In this document: piece by piece, positions 7,786 to 14,852 of the stretch
Position numbering within the stretch: position 1 is the first letter of the stretch
Layout: each line of letters begins with the position of its first letter
Origin: Pseudomonadota bacterium
GTDB lineage: Bacteria; Desulfobacterota; Desulfobacteria; Desulfobacterales; RPRI01
Reading direction: 5' to 3'
DNA: 64,000 nucleotides
Assembly (NCBI GenBank): GCA_018817425.1
Contig: JAHITX010000100.1
Location: forward strand, 1 to 64,000
The notes under the pieces: model-generated
Told to the model about the DNA's origin: nothing
The model's database searches: none
What the model saw: only the letters and a program-made list of their open reading frames with translations
Program-made: the position numbers and the translations under genes

Positions 7786-9954
7786 ATGGCAAATATCAGC
7801 CGCTTGGCTTTTTCTTTAAGCAAGCTGTCTATACAGGCGCTAAGACGTTGGTCTAAGGCATCAGTACATATTCATGGTGCCGAAAACATTCCGGATGGTG
7901 TAATTATCTTTGCAGTAAACCATTTTACACGCTTGGAAACCCTGATTCTACCCTACGAATTTTACAGACTAACCGGCAAACCAATTATGTCTCTTGCCTA
8001 CCATGGTCTATTCACCGGAGCTTTGGGCAAATATTTGGATAAAATGGGTGTGGTATCTACCAATGATCCCAACCGTGATGAAATTATTATTCGCTCTTTA
8101 CTAATCGGAGATAATCCCTGGCTGATTTTTCCGGAAGGCCAGATGGTAAAAGATAAAAAGATTGTTGAAAGCGGTAAGTTTCTCATATACAGCGCTACGG
8201 GCAAACGGCGACCACCTCATACAGGTGCTGCAGCACTGGCATTACGTACGGAGTTTTATAGGCAAAGACTACAGTATCTGCAGGAAACTGACAGCGATTT
8301 GCTTAATCAGCAGCTAAATATTTTTGATCTTTCTTCCATGGAACAGGTGAGCAAAAAAGAAACCTTTCTGGTGCCGGTTAATATTAGTTATTATCCTATC
8401 CGTTCACGTCAAAACGCCATTGAAAAAATGGCTTCATATCTTGTGAAGGATATGCCTGATTATATAGCTGAAGAACTGCAAACCGAAGGTACCATGCTTC
8501 TTTCAGGAGTAGATATTGATATCACTATCGGAAAGCCAATGGCTATAAGGCCCTTCCTTAATAAAGGGATTATCCAAAAAGACATACACACGCCAAAGTC
8601 TTTAATGCCGGATGATCTGCTGCATTCAAGGCCTGTGATAAGAATGATGGCCAGTAAACTTACCATGGAAGTAATGGCTTGTATTTACCAAAATACTACG
8701 GTGAATTATGATCATCTACTTGCCTATATTATAAAATATTATCCCGGAAAAAAGCTAAGCTTATTTAACCTTGCACAGCGGCTTTTCCTGGCTGTGGAAG
8801 CAGTTACCAGGCTTAAATCCATAAGGTTACATAATGGATTACAACAAAACCAATGCGTACAACTCTGTCGCAATTATAAAACATTTCTTGCCGATTTCCT
8901 CGAGGTAGCAAAACGAAGCGGTGCTGTAGAAATAGATGCTGATATAATCCATCTGAAGGGTCCGGCAATTAACACACTTTTTGATTTTAACAGCATCAGA
9001 AGAGAAAATCCATACCAGGTTATTCTAAACGAGGTAGAATATCTTAGACCGCTTACTTTTAGATTGCAATTAATTGCCCAGCAGCCTTTCTGGTCAGTGT
9101 GCCGGAGCCTGCGGCTCAAATTTCTTCAAATGGCCAAACAGGAGTTTGACTCCGACTATGAAACTTATCAGAGCGAGGGTGAGTCAAAACCTAAAAATAT
9201 TGGTGCTCCGATTTTTTATAAAAGATTTTCCCCGAAAGCCGGAATATTACTAGTTCATGGTTATTTGGCTGCTCCAGAGGAAGTAAGACCTCTTGCAGAG
9301 TATCTCTATCAGCAGGGCTATACCGTTTTTGCTCCACGTCTTAGGGGACACGGCACCAGCCCTGAAGATCTATCTCTTAGAACCTGGGAGGATTGGTTGC
9401 AATCAGTTGAACTTGGTTATATGCTTTTAGCAAATAGCGCTAAGGATGTTATTGTGGGTGGAATAAGTATGGGAGCCGGCTTGGCCCTTTTTGCGGCTGC
9501 AAACATGCCATATAAAATTAAAGCAGTTTTTGCAGTTAACTGTGCTATGAGATTAAGGAGACAAAGCGCCAAATTTGCCCCGGCTATTGTTTTGTGGAAC
9601 AAGCTTGCAGATAAAATGGTTAATGATGAAGGGCGCAGGCACTTTGTGCCAAATGAACCTGAGAATCCGCATATCAACTATCTGCGCAATCCAATTAATG
9701 GTGTTAAAGAGTTAATGGAGTTAATGGATCAGCTCTCACCCAGGCTTGAGCATATAAAAGTTCCTGCTCTTTTGATACAATCATCCGGGGATCTTGTTGT
9801 TGATCCTGATGGAAGTAAATTTGTATTCGAGAAACTTGGCTCCGAGGATAAGGAGTTGGTTATGCTCAATTCTGACCGACACGGTATTTTCAGAGGCGAT
9901 ATTTCAAAAAGTGTTTTCAGCAAGATAAAAGAATTTCTTAATACGAGAATCTGA
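7786..9954 (+). CDS. Fusion: PlsC-like acyltransferase plus alpha/beta hydrolase
   Basis: The 722-residue protein joins two enzymes. The N-terminal domain (about 1-300) shows acyltransferase motifs NHFTRLETL (H-x4-E in place of H-x4-D) and FPEGQMVK. A linker of about 170 residues follows. The C-terminal domain (about 480-720) is an alpha/beta hydrolase: LLVHGYLAAPEEVRPL, RGHGTSPEDL, nucleophile elbow GGISMGA, acid in GDLVVDPDG and base in SDRHGIF. It could both add and remove acyl groups on the lipid made by this locus. A GGGTGAG site precedes the ATG six bases after the DUF2867 gene. E. coli ynbC also encodes a hydrolase-type protein in a similar neighbourhood. Confidence 0.82.
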   Translation: MANISRLAFSLSKLSIQALRRWSKASVHIHGAENIPDGVIIFAVNHFTRLETLILPYEFYRLTGKPIMSLAYHGLFTGALGKYLDKMGVVSTNDPNRDEIIIRSLLIGDNPWLIFPEGQMVKDKKIVESGKFLIYSATGKRRPPHTGAAALALRTEFYRQRLQYLQETDSDLLNQQLNIFDLSSMEQVSKKETFLVPVNISYYPIRSRQNAIEKMASYLVKDMPDYIAEELQTEGTMLLSGVDIDITIGKPMAIRPFLNKGIIQKDIHTPKSLMPDDLLHSRPVIRMMASKLTMEVMACIYQNTTVNYDHLLAYIIKYYPGKKLSLFNLAQRLFLAVEAVTRLKSIRLHNGLQQNQCVQLCRNYKTFLADFLEVAKRSGAVEIDADIIHLKGPAINTLFDFNSIRRENPYQVILNEVEYLRPLTFRLQLIAQQPFWSVCRSLRLKFLQMAKQEFDSDYETYQSEGESKPKNIGAPIFYKRFSPKAGILLVHGYLAAPEEVRPLAEYLYQQGYTVFAPRLRGHGTSPEDLSLRTWEDWLQSVELGYMLLANSAKDVIVGGISMGAGLALFAAANMPYKIKAVFAVNCAMRLRRQSAKFAPAIVLWNKLADKMVNDEGRRHFVPNEPENPHINYLRNPINGVKELMELMDQLSPRLEHIKVPALLIQSSGDLVVDPDGSKFVFEKLGSEDKELVMLNSDRHGIFRGDISKSVFSKIKEFLNTRI

Positions 9955-10179: not shown

Positions 10180-10512
10180 ATGAAAGTTGCTTATATTTTT
10201 TCAAGCTCCAATTCACATTATATTTTGAGCAATATGATTGTACCGCAATTGGAATCAGGGAAACACGGATTTGAAGTATGCGGAATGTTCTTTTTTTTAG
10301 ACAATACATTTATTCTGGTAAAAGACAATGATGTAGGTGAGCGTCTTTCAAAGATTGCTTCAGAAAAAGGGATGCTGCTCATGGGATGTGACAAATGTGT
10401 GATTGATCGCAGAATACAAGATAGCCTGGTGGAATCGGCAACAATAGGCTGTTTCCCGGACTTGCACAAAGCTCTGGCCGGATCGGGCGTTGAGCAGGTA
10501 ATTACACTTTAA
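10180..10512 (+). CDS. DsrE-like small protein (SaoD-type)
   Basis: The 110-residue soluble protein starts MKVAYIFSSSN and carries MLLMGCDKCVIDR (cysteines near residues 69 and 72) and IGCFPDLHKAL (Cys near 90), in keeping with the DsrE/DsrF fold where conserved cysteines relay sulfur. It closely recalls the DsrE-related family named SaoD in annotation systems, tied to a putative sulfur/selenium-linked cluster; that link is memory, not a search. A GGAG ribosome site precedes the ATG. It opens a four-gene + strand cluster with Fe-S/VTT and YdjY-like proteins, supporting a redox or chalcogen-handling role. Confidence 0.65.
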   Translation: MKVAYIFSSSNSHYILSNMIVPQLESGKHGFEVCGMFFFLDNTFILVKDNDVGERLSKIASEKGMLLMGCDKCVIDRRIQDSLVESATIGCFPDLHKALAGSGVEQVITL

Positions 10513-10531
10513 AAATTCGAGCATACTCTAA

Positions 10532-12385
10532 ATGAATGATAATAGTTATTTGCAAATAGCCGAATCATATACAAAGAAGTCTTATTCCGCCTTACAGGAA
10601 GAATTGCAGGCTAACTCTGAAAAATGTATTAACTGTAAACTTTGTCAAAAGGAATGTGAATTTTTAAGAAAATATGGCAAGCCCAAGGAAATTGCCGATT
10701 CTTTTGACCTTACGGATAAGACTTTTAAGACAATGGCTTTCGAATGCAGCCTTTGCGGGTTATGTGCAGCTGTGTGTCCGTTGGGTTTGAATCCGGCAGA
10801 CATGTTTCTTGAAATGCGACGGGAAGCTGTAAAGCAAGGTGGCGGGATATTTGCCGAACACAACGGCATTTTAGCTTATGAGAAAAAAGGCACTTCAAAG
10901 CTTTTTTCATGGTATGGTCTGCCTGAAGGCTGCGATACCGTATTTTTTCCAGGTTGTTCTTTGCCCGGTACCAGGCCGGACAAAACCCTTGGGCTTTTCA
11001 AACTCATTCAAAAAAAATTCCCATCGGCCGGAATCGTTTTTGACTGCTGTACAAAACCATCGCATGATCTTGGGAGAAATGCCTTTTTCACTGCCATGTT
11101 TGGAGAAATGAAAGAATTTTTGATTCAAAACAAAATCAAAAAAGTACTGGTGGCTTGCCCCAATTGTTACAAAATCTTTGATCAATACGGCGGTGATATT
11201 TCCGTTATTAGTATCTATGAGTTTCTTGCCGATCTGGATATTCCTGTTGAAAAAAAAATGTCTTATAGTGTTACTGTGCATGACCCTTGTGCTCTGCGTT
11301 ATAAGGAACCTGTGCAGAAATCAGTGAGAAAGCTTATTGAAAAACTGGGAATCAGTATTTATGAAATGCCGCATTCCGGTATAAATACTCTGTGTTGCGG
11401 TGAAGGCGGATCTGTAAGTTTCTTGTCTCCCGGACTTGCTGAAAAATGGATAGGTATCCGAAAACAGGAACATAAAGGAAACCGGGTTATCACTTATTGC
11501 GCCGGATGTGCGAATCACCTGAATCAGGCCATGCCCACTGATCATATTATAGATCTTTATTTTGAACCGGAAGCCACATTGGCAGGAAACGCCAAAATTT
11601 ACAAGGCTCCGGTTACCTACTTAAACCGCTTAAAACTTAAACGGCATCTGAAAAACAGTTTAAATACAGCCGTATCAAGGGAAAGAACATTTACAGGTCA
11701 GGAAAAATCATCCAAAGCAGCAATGTTTAAACGTATAGTTATTCTTCTTGCCATTATATCCATTATTATACTAGTTCGTGCTGGGGGTTTGGAAAATTAT
11801 TTTGAAACCGGGGCGTTAAGAGAACTGATAGCATCAAAAGGGGCACTTGCCCCTATCCTCTACATGCTGATTTATATTATAGCACCAGCCCTTTTTTTGC
11901 CGGGACTTCCAATTACTATTGCAGGAGGCATTCTTTTCGGTCCTTTATGGGGTGTTATCTATACTATTACCAGTTCCACAATAGGCGCCGGTGCGGCATT
12001 TTTAATATCCCGTTACGTTGCAAGGGACTGGATTGCTGCAAAACTTACAAGCCCCAGATGGCAAAGGCTGGATGAAGGAGTTGAAAAACATGGGTGGAAA
12101 GTAGTCGCTTTTACACGGCTAATCCCTTTGTTTCCTTTTAACCTCTTAAATTATGCCTTTGGTTTAACCAAAATAAAATTTACACATTACATACTGGCCA
12201 CTTTCATTTGTATGCTTCCTGCCTGCATAGCATTTATTGTGTTTTCAAGTTCGCTTCTTGATCTGTTTAAGGGGAAAATATCTGGAAATCTGTTAGCCGG
12301 AATAATACTTATTATCATAGTTTCTCTTATTCCGATTTTTCACAAAAAATATAAAACCAAAAAAGGGACATCGGATCCTTTATAG
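10532..12385 (+). CDS. Fusion: HdrD-like 4Fe-4S/CCG protein plus VTT membrane domain
   Basis: The 617-residue protein has two ferredoxin motifs (CINCKLCQKEC about 33-43; CSLCGLCAAVC about 73-83) and two CCG-type cysteine domains. The first has CC followed by Thr (FDCCTKPS) and ends CPNC; the second is canonical (LCCGEGG, ending CAGC). This is the HdrD/GlpC/LutA plan that binds 4Fe-4S clusters and handles disulfides or feeds electrons. From about residue 395 the protein becomes a VTT/TVP38 (YdjX-type) membrane domain with LPGLPITIAGGILFGPLWG and RYVARDW. The fusion places a cytoplasmic Fe-S reductase directly on a membrane protein. I do not recall a characterised protein with this layout. Confidence 0.82.
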   Translation: MNDNSYLQIAESYTKKSYSALQEELQANSEKCINCKLCQKECEFLRKYGKPKEIADSFDLTDKTFKTMAFECSLCGLCAAVCPLGLNPADMFLEMRREAVKQGGGIFAEHNGILAYEKKGTSKLFSWYGLPEGCDTVFFPGCSLPGTRPDKTLGLFKLIQKKFPSAGIVFDCCTKPSHDLGRNAFFTAMFGEMKEFLIQNKIKKVLVACPNCYKIFDQYGGDISVISIYEFLADLDIPVEKKMSYSVTVHDPCALRYKEPVQKSVRKLIEKLGISIYEMPHSGINTLCCGEGGSVSFLSPGLAEKWIGIRKQEHKGNRVITYCAGCANHLNQAMPTDHIIDLYFEPEATLAGNAKIYKAPVTYLNRLKLKRHLKNSLNTAVSRERTFTGQEKSSKAAMFKRIVILLAIISIIILVRAGGLENYFETGALRELIASKGALAPILYMLIYIIAPALFLPGLPITIAGGILFGPLWGVIYTITSSTIGAGAAFLISRYVARDWIAAKLTSPRWQRLDEGVEKHGWKVVAFTRLIPLFPFNLLNYAFGLTKIKFTHYILATFICMLPACIAFIVFSSSLLDLFKGKISGNLLAGIILIIIVSLIPIFHKKYKTKKGTSDPL

Positions 12386-12406
12386 TAAAGTTTACATTAG
12401 GTTTTT

Positions 12407-13012
12407 ATGCCTCAAGACATCATACCCATACTGAAAATAAAAGCCTTAATACTATGCGCAATACTATCGATTTGTACAACAATCTATTTTTTAATTCTCC
12501 ATTATTTCTATATGCTGAACAGTTATGTTTATACAGCCGAATTTCACTGGTTATTTCTGACAGGTAATCTTAAATCGGCAAACATATCCTTGCTTTCAGA
12601 ATACTTTAAGGCTTTAGGACCGCTTGATTGTCTTCCCAATCTTTTACTATCTCAAGTGATCAGCACCTTTATAAATCCTTTTTCATGGCCTGTGCTGGCT
12701 TTTTCAATAGTAAATGCATTCGGACCCGGCACCGCAATATTGCTTAACCTGATAAGTGCCTCAAGTATAGGGTTATGTACATATGGATTAGGATTATTTT
12801 TTTCAGGAGATATTCTTGCGCTAACATGCAAGAAATATATTTCTCCTCCACGTTGGATGATGCCGGCTCTTTTTATATTGTTTTGTATACCCTATATAAC
12901 AATTTTGCTACCGGCAATTTTAGCGGCATTTTTTCAAGTAAAATTAAAATACTTTTTTATGCTTATGATTACTGGTTTATTAATTCGAATAGCTTTCGGT
13001 TTTATTCATTGA
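12407..13012 (+). CDS. Divergent VTT/YdjZ-like membrane protein
   Basis: The 201-residue protein has about five hydrophobic segments. Around residues 100-130 it reads FSIVNAFGPGTAILLNLISA and GLGLFFSGDI, which parallels the FGPxxG...YxxGR segment of VTT/DedA-like proteins, but the usual arginine is replaced. It sits between the Fe-S/VTT fusion and a YdjY-like gene, and so recalls the E. coli ydjX-ydjY-ydjZ arrangement of two VTT proteins plus one periplasmic protein. The VTT assignment is tentative; the membrane character is clear. It starts 21 bases after the fusion gene. Confidence 0.5.
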   Translation: MPQDIIPILKIKALILCAILSICTTIYFLILHYFYMLNSYVYTAEFHWLFLTGNLKSANISLLSEYFKALGPLDCLPNLLLSQVISTFINPFSWPVLAFSIVNAFGPGTAILLNLISASSIGLCTYGLGLFFSGDILALTCKKYISPPRWMMPALFILFCIPYITILLPAILAAFFQVKLKYFFMLMITGLLIRIAFGFIH

Positions 13013-13061
13013 AGTTTAATCAACAACTAAATGGGATTTTTAAAGTCCGGGGAGGTTTGAA

Positions 13062-13955
13062 ATGGATTCAAAAAACAATAAAAACTGCGGCTGCTCCTGC
13101 TGCGATAATACATCCGGCGGAGTGCTTTTAGGCGGTGAAACAGGAGCAAAGGAAATTGCAAAACCCGGTGAAATGACTCGGTCGATCTTTTTAAAAACTG
13201 TGGCCGCAGGTGTTATAGGCATGAGTACACTTGCCGGAACCAAAGCCTTTGCAGAAGTTGTGAAAAACCCTGATATTAAAATTTTCAAAGGTTCTTCAGG
13301 CGACATGATGATTATGGATACTGCAAACAAGGAATTACGTATTTCAGCAACCGTTACCAAGGACGTAACCAAGCCTTCCGTGGCTGACTGGGGCAGGCGA
13401 TTTCAGGCATTTTTCGGTGCGAAAGGCGGCAAAATGGAAAGCTTTTTCGTATTTACCACGGATGTTTCCCGCACTGATATCGATAAATCCATTCGGGAAA
13501 TCGGCATTCAATCCAGAAGAATTATCCCGTTTGAGGAGGTGGCCGCCCGCACCGGTCTTAAACCGACCACTACCATTGAGGATTATCTGGACGGCGATCC
13601 CGTTATCGTGACTATCCGCTTTGAAAAAACCGGTAATATCGTTGAAGGCGCTTTGGAAGATTTTATTCAGGAAAAGATCATCGTGGAAGGAAAAGATGTA
13701 ATTAAGCCCTATACGCCACATTTTGTTTATCACGGTTCAGGCGAGGCTTTAAATTTTCCTTCAGGTTGTATTGTCTGCCCTTCCGACTGTAACGGCGGCA
13801 TTATTACCGACAATGTTCTGCCTTTAAAAACTACGGTAAACTATTACAAGATCAACTGGGATCGTATGCCGCCTGTCGGGTCTAAAGTGGAGGTGGTAAT
13901 TAAATCAATTTATGGGCCCCATCGTTTGTCATCTACAAAAGATGCAAGCGCATAA
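13062..13955 (+). CDS. YdjY-like cysteine protein with CxCC head and Tat-like anchor
   Basis: The 297-residue protein begins with NCGCSCCDN (about residues 8-16), then a Tat-like segment at about 38-62 (MTRSIFLKTVAAG followed by GVIGMSTLAG). Compared with the Tat consensus S/T-R-R-x-F-L-K the second arginine is Ser, so export by Tat is doubtful and the segment may be an uncleaved anchor. The mature part has a YdjY-type domain and a late CIVCPSDC motif (about 240-250) able to hold a metal or disulfide. A strong GGGGAGG site precedes the ATG. It ends the DsrE/Fe-S/VTT cluster and may be its membrane or periplasmic electron or thiol partner (inference). Confidence 0.65.
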   Translation: MDSKNNKNCGCSCCDNTSGGVLLGGETGAKEIAKPGEMTRSIFLKTVAAGVIGMSTLAGTKAFAEVVKNPDIKIFKGSSGDMMIMDTANKELRISATVTKDVTKPSVADWGRRFQAFFGAKGGKMESFFVFTTDVSRTDIDKSIREIGIQSRRIIPFEEVAARTGLKPTTTIEDYLDGDPVIVTIRFEKTGNIVEGALEDFIQEKIIVEGKDVIKPYTPHFVYHGSGEALNFPSGCIVCPSDCNGGIITDNVLPLKTTVNYYKINWDRMPPVGSKVEVVIKSIYGPHRLSSTKDASA

Positions 13956-13988: not shown

Positions 13989-14140
13989 ATGAAAAAAATA
14001 TAACAAAAATCGGGTAAATAACATTAATTTTTATTACCAGTGTCGGTGTATCGTACGGAGACATCACTCTTACGGAGTTTGCAAACGGTCAGGGCAGCTT
14101 GAAGGCAGACGGACAGGTAACCGGTAGCTCTATGGTATAA
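13989..14140 (+). pseudogene. Decayed small gene remnant
   Basis: An ATG with a good AAAGGAG site opens MKKI and stops at once. A second frame then runs from about 14018 to a TAA at 14138-14140 and reads ITSVGVSYGDITLTEFANG and GSLKADGQVTGSSMV, a plausible C-terminal beta-rich segment. The two pieces are in different frames and no start serves the second. The remnant overlaps the 3' end of the convergent methyltransferase gene by 11 bases. The protein family is not recognised. Confidence 0.3.
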
Positions 14141-14852
14141 ACATATTTTCTACTTCATCAGTATAAGAACCATCATCCTTATATATTACAAGAGGTGAGG
14201 CGACCTTTGCTCCTGCTTTACCACCTTTAATGCCTTCGACAATTACAAGTTTGGATTCCGAATTGTTTTTCGAGTAAATAAATCTAAAATACTTTGGTTC
14301 TATTCCTGAAAAACGCATATGTTCAATTATATCGGCTATGCGCTCTGAAGGATAAATCATTATGAATTTACCTGAAATATCCAAAAGACTTTTTGCCGAT
14401 TCAAAGATTCCGGGAAGAGAAATCATGATTTCATGTCTAGCCAGCGCGCGCTGATTATCGGGATTTACCCTTCCTGAATTTGCCTTTCTGTATGGCGGGT
14501 TACATACAATAATATCAGGTGATCCAAAGATCATACTTTTTTTTAAATTTTTCAGGTCAGTGCAAATGATTCCAATTTGTTCTTCCATGCCGTTGTTTTT
14601 CACATTCATGACGGCAATATCTGCAAGACTTTTCTGTACTTCGATCCCGTATATTTTAATTTCCGGATTTTGGTATGCGAGTATAAGAGAAATTATGCCG
14701 CACCCTGTTCCTATATCAAGAATTTTATTTCCCGCAGATGCTTTAACATGTGAGGCAAGTAAAACTGAATCGATTGAAAAGCGATATCCTGACTTATTTT
14801 GTTTAATAGATAATTTACCTTTGAAAAAATAGTCGTCTGTAAGCAAATCCAT
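14130..14852 (-). CDS. trmN6: tRNA1(Val) adenine-N6 methyltransferase (TrmN6/YfiC family)
   Basis: The 240-residue protein has the class I SAM-binding motif ILDIGTGCGIISL (about residues 45-57) and the N6-adenine/N-methyltransferase motif CNPPYR (about 115-120), followed by the NPDNQRALARHE segment that is characteristic of the YfiC/TrmN6 group. It would methylate A37 of tRNA1(Val). It lies two bases downstream of the dciA-like gene on the minus strand, so the two are probably co-transcribed. Its 3' end faces the remnant of the YdjY-like cluster. Confidence 0.8.
   Translation of the reverse strand: MDLLTDDYFFKGKLSIKQNKSGYRFSIDSVLLASHVKASAGNKILDIGTGCGIISLILAYQNPEIKIYGIEVQKSLADIAVMNVKNNGMEEQIGIICTDLKNLKKSMIFGSPDIIVCNPPYRKANSGRVNPDNQRALARHEIMISLPGIFESAKSLLDISGKFIMIYPSERIADIIEHMRFSGIEPKYFRFIYSKNNSESKLVIVEGIKGGKAGAKVASPLVIYKDDGSYTDEVENMFIP

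Follow-up and report, generated by a model that had tools for sequence, protein, structure and literature searches.

An HdrD-like Fe-S protein fused to a VTT membrane domain and its gene neighbours in Desulfobacterota and Nitrospirota

Contig JAHITX010000100.1 from a Desulfobacterota bacterium (assembly GCA_018817425.1) carries four closely packed genes that raise the question of why an iron-sulfur (Fe-S) reductase would be built into a VTT membrane protein and what such a protein would act on. The genes lie at positions 10180–13955 on the + strand of the 64,000-nucleotide stretch that we analyzed (the window) and are separated in the open reading frame listing by gaps of 19, 21, and 49 bp. 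They encode a SaoD-like protein of the DsrE family (P0001), an HdrD-like Fe-S protein fused to a VTT domain (P0002; designated FUS), a divergent VTT-like protein (P0003; designated memP3), and a YdjY-like protein (P0004). All of the component families are known. The assembled system, our literature search suggests, is undescribed; no title or abstract described the fusion or the cluster, and papers on the Sec-assisted organometallic (SAO) system itself may mention parts. We tentatively propose that the four genes work together as a single module of the inner membrane, which handles a thiophilic organometal(loid) or selenium compound by reduction and is a relative or adjunct of SAO, a proposal that we regard as approaching, but falling short of, probable.

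Domains and cysteine motifs of the four proteins

P0002 contains the Pfam domains Fer4_17, CCG (PF02754), and VTT (PF09335; 99.2 bits against a cut-off of 33.9). Both of its CxxCxxCxxxC ferredoxin motifs are complete, as are two HdrB-type motifs (C142/C172C173/C209xxC212 and C253/C288C289/C323xxC326); Pfam assigns a single CCG stretch. The ferredoxin and CCG cysteines are invariant in a 6-row alignment, and among 82 family rows the first CCG motif is complete in 80, the second in 79, and the ferredoxin pattern in 70. Ferredoxin motifs and two CCG motifs are shared with the HdrD, LutA, and EtfD reductases; the membrane part of FUS, in contrast, is a VTT domain, and no HdrE-like gene is found among the four genes. 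In both sequence and fold, M. smegmatis EtfD (9ojn; Foldseek E=8e-9) is the closest of the solved structures, ahead of LutA and HdrB, and the modeled Fe-S part of a homologue in which FUS and memP3 are fused (locus L060) has a fold like these three proteins (Foldseek 9ojn, 9a6l, and 8rvy_b). Among NCBIfam models, the nearest is NF045663 (diclust_near_Sec), named as a pyridine nucleotide-disulfide oxidoreductase/dicluster protein. It matches at 233.6 bits, under its cut-off of 530, and aligns amino acids 13–388 of P0002 with profile positions 287–672 of 759, leaving the N-terminal third of the profile unmatched. Selenocysteine in FUS was considered and rejected: when 8 broken or short fusion loci were compared with P0002, in-frame stops appeared in L104 (one) and L113 (two), all of them TAG, and none appeared in the other six. 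The check comprised those 8 loci, and no TGA search was made in the remaining loci or the partner genes.

P0001 matches the NCBIfam SaoD model NF040732 over its full length (E=3e-50) at 168.9 bits, 0.1 bit under the cut-off of 169. The protein is 78% identical to SaoD of an SAO locus (L044, in genome G087) that also encodes SaoT and SaoE over their cut-offs and a MerB-like lyase. C70, C73, and C91 of P0001 are invariant in 4 aligned rows.

Searches of P0003 against Pfam and NCBIfam at E 0.1 return no family. The VTT-like character of this protein emerges from hhalign comparison with a VTT alignment (89.5%, E=2e-6; 39.6% with fewer rows). Direct searches with PF09335 give no match to P0003 or to the memP3 module of L064, 15.7 bits for the homologue in L049, and 28.5 bits (2.3e-6; VTT_dom) for the module of the fused L060 protein, all under the cut-off. 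In 14 homologues, memP3 is joined to the C-terminus of FUS.

P0004 exceeds the cut-off of the YdjY-domain model NF040466 (87.3 bits against 50). The CxxCxxxC motif of this domain is kept in 30 of 31 rows of the neighbor cluster and in 24 of 24 rows of a YdjY alignment that includes E. coli YdjY. P0004 also has a putative signal-like hydrophobic segment and a stretch (TRSIFLK) that we presume to be like a twin-arginine translocation (Tat) signal and that lacks the second arginine; both were read directly from the sequence. The sequence-only reading that preceded this work had called a DsrE-like first gene, two ferredoxin and two CCG motifs joined to a VTT domain in one protein, a second VTT-like protein, and a cysteine-rich YdjY-like partner, all in tightly spaced + strand genes. 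These assignments are borne out, that of the second VTT-like protein by profile comparison only.

Table 1 Features of the four-gene cluster, in window coordinates
Feature	Position	Strand	Basis
SaoD-like DsrE-family protein P0001, 110 amino acids, conserved C70xxC73 and C91	10180..10512	+	NCBIfam NF040732
HdrD-like Fe-S protein fused to VTT membrane domain, P0002 (FUS), 617 amino acids	10532..12385	+	Pfam Fer4_17, CCG, VTT
Two 4Fe-4S motifs of P0002 (C32,35,38,42 and C72,75,78,82)	10622..10792	+	Fer4_17, amino acids 31-87
Two HdrB-type CCG cysteine motifs of P0002	10931..11566	+	Residue patterns, family rows
VTT membrane domain of P0002	11897..12250	+	PF09335, E=2.9e-28, amino acids 456-573
Divergent VTT-like membrane protein P0003 (memP3), 201 amino acids	12407..13012	+	hhalign against VTT alignment
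YdjY-like protein P0004, 297 amino acids, signal-like hydrophobic segment	13062..13955	+	NF040466
N-terminal CxCC of P0004, ahead of signal-like segment	13092..13103	+	CxCC in YdjY N-terminus in 11 memP3-type loci
C236xxC239xxxC243 of P0004 YdjY domain	13767..13790	+	Alignment with relatives and E. coli YdjY

The FUS family and its conserved neighbors

FUS is a real, widespread family. A search of 59 relatives gave matches at 1e-40 in 11 genomes, 6 of which (G000, the window's genome, and G002, G006, G021, G025, and G055) contain the full fusion; the rest hold pieces that end with a contig, lack VTT, or consist of VTT only. A genome scan then supplied the family set, which comprises the best 80 of 200 confirmed stretches (weaker relatives are missing) and with the window gives 81 loci. 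The match runs through the VTT domain in 75 of the 80 relatives; it stops before VTT in L120, L125, L126, and L127 and at a contig end in L123, and these five are counted among the loci without memP3. Most of the 80 loci come from Deltaproteobacteria/Desulfobacterota (Desulfobacterales, Desulfobulbaceae, Geobacteraceae, and Desulfuromonadales) and 5 from Nitrospirota. Cultured carriers include Malonomonas rubra, Oryzomonas japonica, Desulfuromusa kysingii, and Desulfoluna species.

Neighbors were counted by tblastn within 5 kb of FUS in the 81 loci, many of which lie on short contigs; genes in the relatives' loci were called with a simple custom gene finder, and kinship limits the independence of all such counts. 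Twenty-two loci have both memP3 and YdjY (memP3-type loci, including L057, where both matches are partial), 13 have YdjY only, and 46 have no partner. YdjY therefore accompanies FUS in 22/22 loci with memP3 and in 13/59 without it (p=4e-11). Among the memP3-type loci, SaoL is found in 7 and SaoD in 3. One or the other occurs in 10/22 memP3-type loci versus 0/59 others (Fisher p=3.4e-7), and in 9/16 versus 0/34 when loci with more than 4 kb on each side are compared (p=4.6e-6). Two of the seven SaoL assignments are confirmed by NCBIfam NF040728 (172.5 and 170.1 bits; cut-off 140) and the other 5 by similarity to these. On a tree of 75 of the 82 rows (those over 500 amino acids), the presence of memP3 requires 8 label changes, 7 of which are forced, with some forks open and the bootstrap unsettled. 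Read by eye, the tree contains about 7 memP3 groups, each with at least one SaoL or SaoD row.

The complete SaoD-FUS-memP3-YdjY block recurs in L049, a locus from the same genus as the window (genome G006), and in a second phylum, in L115 of the Nitrospiraceae. A further genome of the window's genus (G009), outside the 81, has SaoD adjoining a fusion cut by a contig end. The sequence-only reading had taken the genes to be one system, and the spread of the fusion beyond this genome together with the recurrence of the block supports that view well. Linkage to the DsrE-like gene is limited to 3/81 loci and the contig-end case in G009.

The subtype with memP3 is also marked by a short cysteine motif. 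A CxCC sequence occurs in a + strand neighbor within about 4 kb in 19/22 memP3-type loci and in 0/59 others (p=1e-15); with more than 4 kb of flank on both sides, the counts are 14/16 and 0/34. Eleven memP3-type loci, among them the window, have the motif at the N-terminus of YdjY; in 8 others a rhodanese-like protein carries it at the C-terminus, and no locus has it in both. These rhodanese-like proteins have a signal-like N-terminus and are encoded upstream. The memP3-type loci without CxCC are L115 (which has CRRSCC instead), L057, and L068, and an additional match in L093 lies in the frame of another cluster. SaoT itself belongs to a family named CxCC_doxin, and CxCC is a putative thiophilic metal(loid) site.

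Searches in the reverse direction used 395 genomes of the phylum, a sample that overlaps the FUS set in that it holds the window's genome and a genome, G316, that appears to be that of L060. Relatives of P0004 at 1e-10 are present in 3/395 genomes, and FUS is adjacent in 3/3. The SaoD profile exceeds 100 bits in 4/395: the window, SAO-like loci in G439 and G567, and a contig end in G268. The SaoL model is over its cut-off in 2/395, beside SaoD in G439 and in G316, where FUS is on another contig.

Two observations concern these SAO families. Genes similar to that for 2-hydroxyglutaryl-CoA dehydratase D adjoin SaoD in the SAO-like loci L044 (G087), L167 (G439), and L168 (G567), one in L044 being assigned by a Pfam match and the others by similarity. 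Among the 61 MerB/SaoL-like matches listed in the 395 genomes, 41, all of them under the SaoL cut-off, contain one in-frame TGA and are candidate MerB-like selenoproteins; such a protein, SaoL, is already listed in a section of PMC13188914.

A candidate reductive module and its alternatives

The SAO system, named in passages of PMC13188914 and in NCBIfam, shares SaoD with the window cluster. SaoL adjoins window-type fusions in 7 relatives, and the CxCC motif echoes the SaoT family name. The cluster differs from SAO in that it lacks an ABC transporter and instead encodes the Fe-S/VTT fusion, memP3, and YdjY. SaoC and SaoT are not among the four genes, and no genome-wide search for them was made. 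Judged by gene content, the cluster resembles, without being, E. coli ydjXYZ. In the ydjXYZ-ynjABCDE locus, two DedA/VTT proteins flank YdjY, whose CxxCxxxC aligns with that of P0004, and a sulfurtransferase (YnjE) is encoded; unlike the window cluster, this locus has no annotated CCG-type reductase or SaoD, and it has the ABC transporter YnjBCD and YnjA. The sequence-only view of the cluster as following ydjXYZ logic, with the Fe-S part absent from E. coli, holds at the level of gene content and YdjY homology.

The analysis shows which genes and domains make up the module that we propose and how they are linked and fused, whereas we infer its topology, its substrate, the way in which transport runs, and all of its chemistry. 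Binding of the substrate would fall to the exported YdjY-like protein, which has the CxxCxxxC site and a CxCC tail expected on the cytoplasmic side, or in relatives to the CxCC rhodanese. The paired VTT domains, one at the C-terminus of FUS and the other in memP3, would carry the substrate across the membrane or hold it there. In the cytosol, the HdrD-like domain could use its two 4Fe-4S and two non-cubane clusters as an electron path for breaking a bond of the thiolate-metal, persulfide, or perselenide type. The product would then be accepted or cleaved by SaoD or, where it stands in for SaoD, by the MerB-like lyase SaoL.

Several observations weigh against this proposal. The window's genome yields no SaoL in two profile searches (in one the control genomes were also silent, and in the other the same model passed its cut-off in 2/395 genomes) and no full SaoE, the best match scoring 66.7 bits against a cut-off of 325. 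The genome therefore has SaoD alone of these SAO parts, and for the lack of SaoL and full SaoE we do not file the cluster as an SAO system. SaoD itself accompanies FUS in just three loci, two of which (the window and L049) belong to one genus, and the 46 partnerless loci have none of memP3, YdjY, SaoD, or SaoL within 5 kb. The model of the fused protein has a predicted template modeling score (pTM) of 0.52, so contacts between its domains are unproven. That of YdjY is modest (predicted local distance difference test score (pLDDT) 70) and has no clear fold match: Foldseek returned none under 0.001. The best VIA-align match, MTH639/DUF371 (Z 5.1), was set aside as too weak to use. HgcA, the corrinoid protein of mercury methylation, shows no enrichment in memP3-type genomes (13/21) over the remaining genomes with FUS (18/29). 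Finally, selenium genes lie near other FUS members, and selenium alone could explain the core.

The last point underlies the main rival explanation, which is close to what the sequence-only reading proposed: the module would import or retain perselenide or selenide, and the DsrE-like SaoD or YedF would hand this on to SelD to make selenocysteine and selenouridine. SelD lies in the flanks of 6/81 FUS loci, where about 0.35 would be expected if each genome has one and kinship is ignored; three of these (L055, L101, and L074) are confirmed by family and the others by similarity. YedF is near 4 FUS loci, 2 of them confirmed by family (L055 and L058), which brings the loci with SelD or YedF to 8. 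In L055 (Nitrospirota), the genes for a double-cubane protein, an activase, SelD, an 88-amino-acid protein, YedF, and a cysteine-desulfurase/Sec-lyase-like protein precede FUS. L104 contains a broken FUS followed by a fusion of YdjY to a 3-mercaptopyruvate sulfurtransferase-like rhodanese (10947-12434), with SelD on the other strand. The selD gene of E. coli is about 6 kb past the end of ydjXYZ-ynjABCDE, and the match to SelD in the window's genome (G000:C79:136526-137452) contains a single in-frame TGA, the pattern expected where SelD is a selenoprotein. According to portions of PMC5322559, YedF carries a DsrE-like domain and is among candidate selenium genes together with YedE, a proposed selenium-transport membrane protein, a LysR regulator, and DUF3343; passages of PMC13188914 state that a high-affinity transport system specific for selenium has yet to be identified in prokaryotes. 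On the other side, the window's SelD is on another contig, only one of the eight SelD/YedF loci (L101) is of the memP3 subtype, and neither SaoL nor CxCC is explained by selenium supply, which we consider a serious but rather unlikely account of the cluster. As an account of the family, the electron or persulfide/selenide delivery across the inner membrane that the sequence-only reading proposed is plausible, since other loci have SelD, YedF, and rhodaneses with signal-like N-termini next to FUS. In the window's subtype, however, the linked genes are SaoD, SaoL, and those for CxCC proteins, which make at least as good a case for organometal(loid) handling, a reading absent from that proposal. 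Organometal(loid) and selenium handling may be two versions of a common chassis that differ in substrate; this would fit the distribution of SAO parts and selenium genes, which are mostly in different loci (L101 holds both).

Other explanations fare less well. Disulfides are substrates of HdrD-like proteins, and many FUS genes have rhodaneses with signal-like N-termini next to them. A sulfane-sulfur relay could be imagined in which a periplasmic rhodanese and YdjY catch sulfur from persulfides, the paired VTT domains move it toward the cytosol, and the Fe-S domain together with the DsrE-like protein reduces it and supplies it to sulfur metabolism or to the synthesis of cofactors. The YdjY-rhodanese fusion in L104 would suit such a relay. 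We judge it improbable: it does not predict SaoL, SelD, or ArsS as neighbors, and no rhodanese is among the window's four genes. The structural kinship with EtfD, LutA, and HdrB would favor an EtfD/DsrK-like enzyme that shuttles electrons between a donor in the cytosol and a carrier in the membrane, its neighbors being incidental. EtfD and DsrK, however, have haem-binding cytochrome b-like membrane domains as partners where FUS has VTT, and the conservation of neighbors speaks against incidental ones, which makes this alternative quite improbable. That the genes are a chance grouping could be argued from the 46 loci without partners, some of them on short contigs. The same block in L049 and in Nitrospiraceae L115, the memP3 fusions, and the neighbor statistics make chance scarcely credible, and on the neighbor counts we rejected it.

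It is tempting to speculate that the cluster is an unrecognized anaerobic counterpart of the mer operon, although we think this doubtful. An HdrD-like reductase on a VTT pair would link electrons from the cytosol to the uptake of organometal(loid) or organoselenium compounds and the breaking of their bonds, with SaoD and SaoL in place of MerA and MerB, in bacteria many of which have hgcA. The likeness to mer lies in SaoL, a MerB-related lyase in some FUS relatives; the four window genes include neither MerA nor MerB, and MerA was not searched genome-wide. HgcA is over its cut-off in 31/50 FUS genomes and 114/395 phylum genomes (p=8e-6, kinship not controlled; 50 of the 80 FUS genomes were searched, and Nitrospirota are in the FUS set only). 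The window's genome has it at G000:C33:42807-43766 (440 bits; cut-off 275). Given the equal frequency in memP3-type genomes, kinship, and the sample overlap, we keep the mercury link through HgcA as context only.

Parts of PMC8679861 describe the molecular function of DedA/VTT proteins as largely unknown, associate one DedA-family protein with the efflux of indium, and cite a link between another and the uptake of selenite. FUS unites a VTT domain with a redox domain in one protein, and its gene lies next to organometal-lyase genes in some relatives and next to selenium genes in others. This arrangement allows direct tests of what VTT and YdjY proteins, and E. coli ydjXYZ, do biochemically, and SaoD and SaoL gain new partners.

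Genomic setting and further neighbors of FUS

The four genes look like an operon of their own because the upstream neighbor ends at 9954 and the downstream gene (14130-14852) is on the opposite strand. The two genes upstream encode an NmrA/DUF2867 protein and an acyltransferase/hydrolase and have no evident link to the cluster. Counts of promoter-like sites (7 versus 12.8 expected) and terminator-like sites (5 versus 3.6 expected) were uninformative, and an Rfam scan gave no match at gathering scores.

Arsenic-related genes adjoin FUS in two relatives. An ArsS/arsenosugar glycosyltransferase gene, confirmed by family (L056:6779-8512), ends 10 bp upstream of FUS, and L070 has a gene similar to it, assigned on that similarity, 20 bp upstream of FUS. 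A 280-amino-acid protein of no known family, perhaps an outer-membrane barrel, is encoded in 14 FUS loci (L069, L078, L080-L085, L088, L095, L112, L118, L122, and L128), many of which also encode proteins resembling glycosyltransferases along with a rhodanese whose N-terminus is signal-like.

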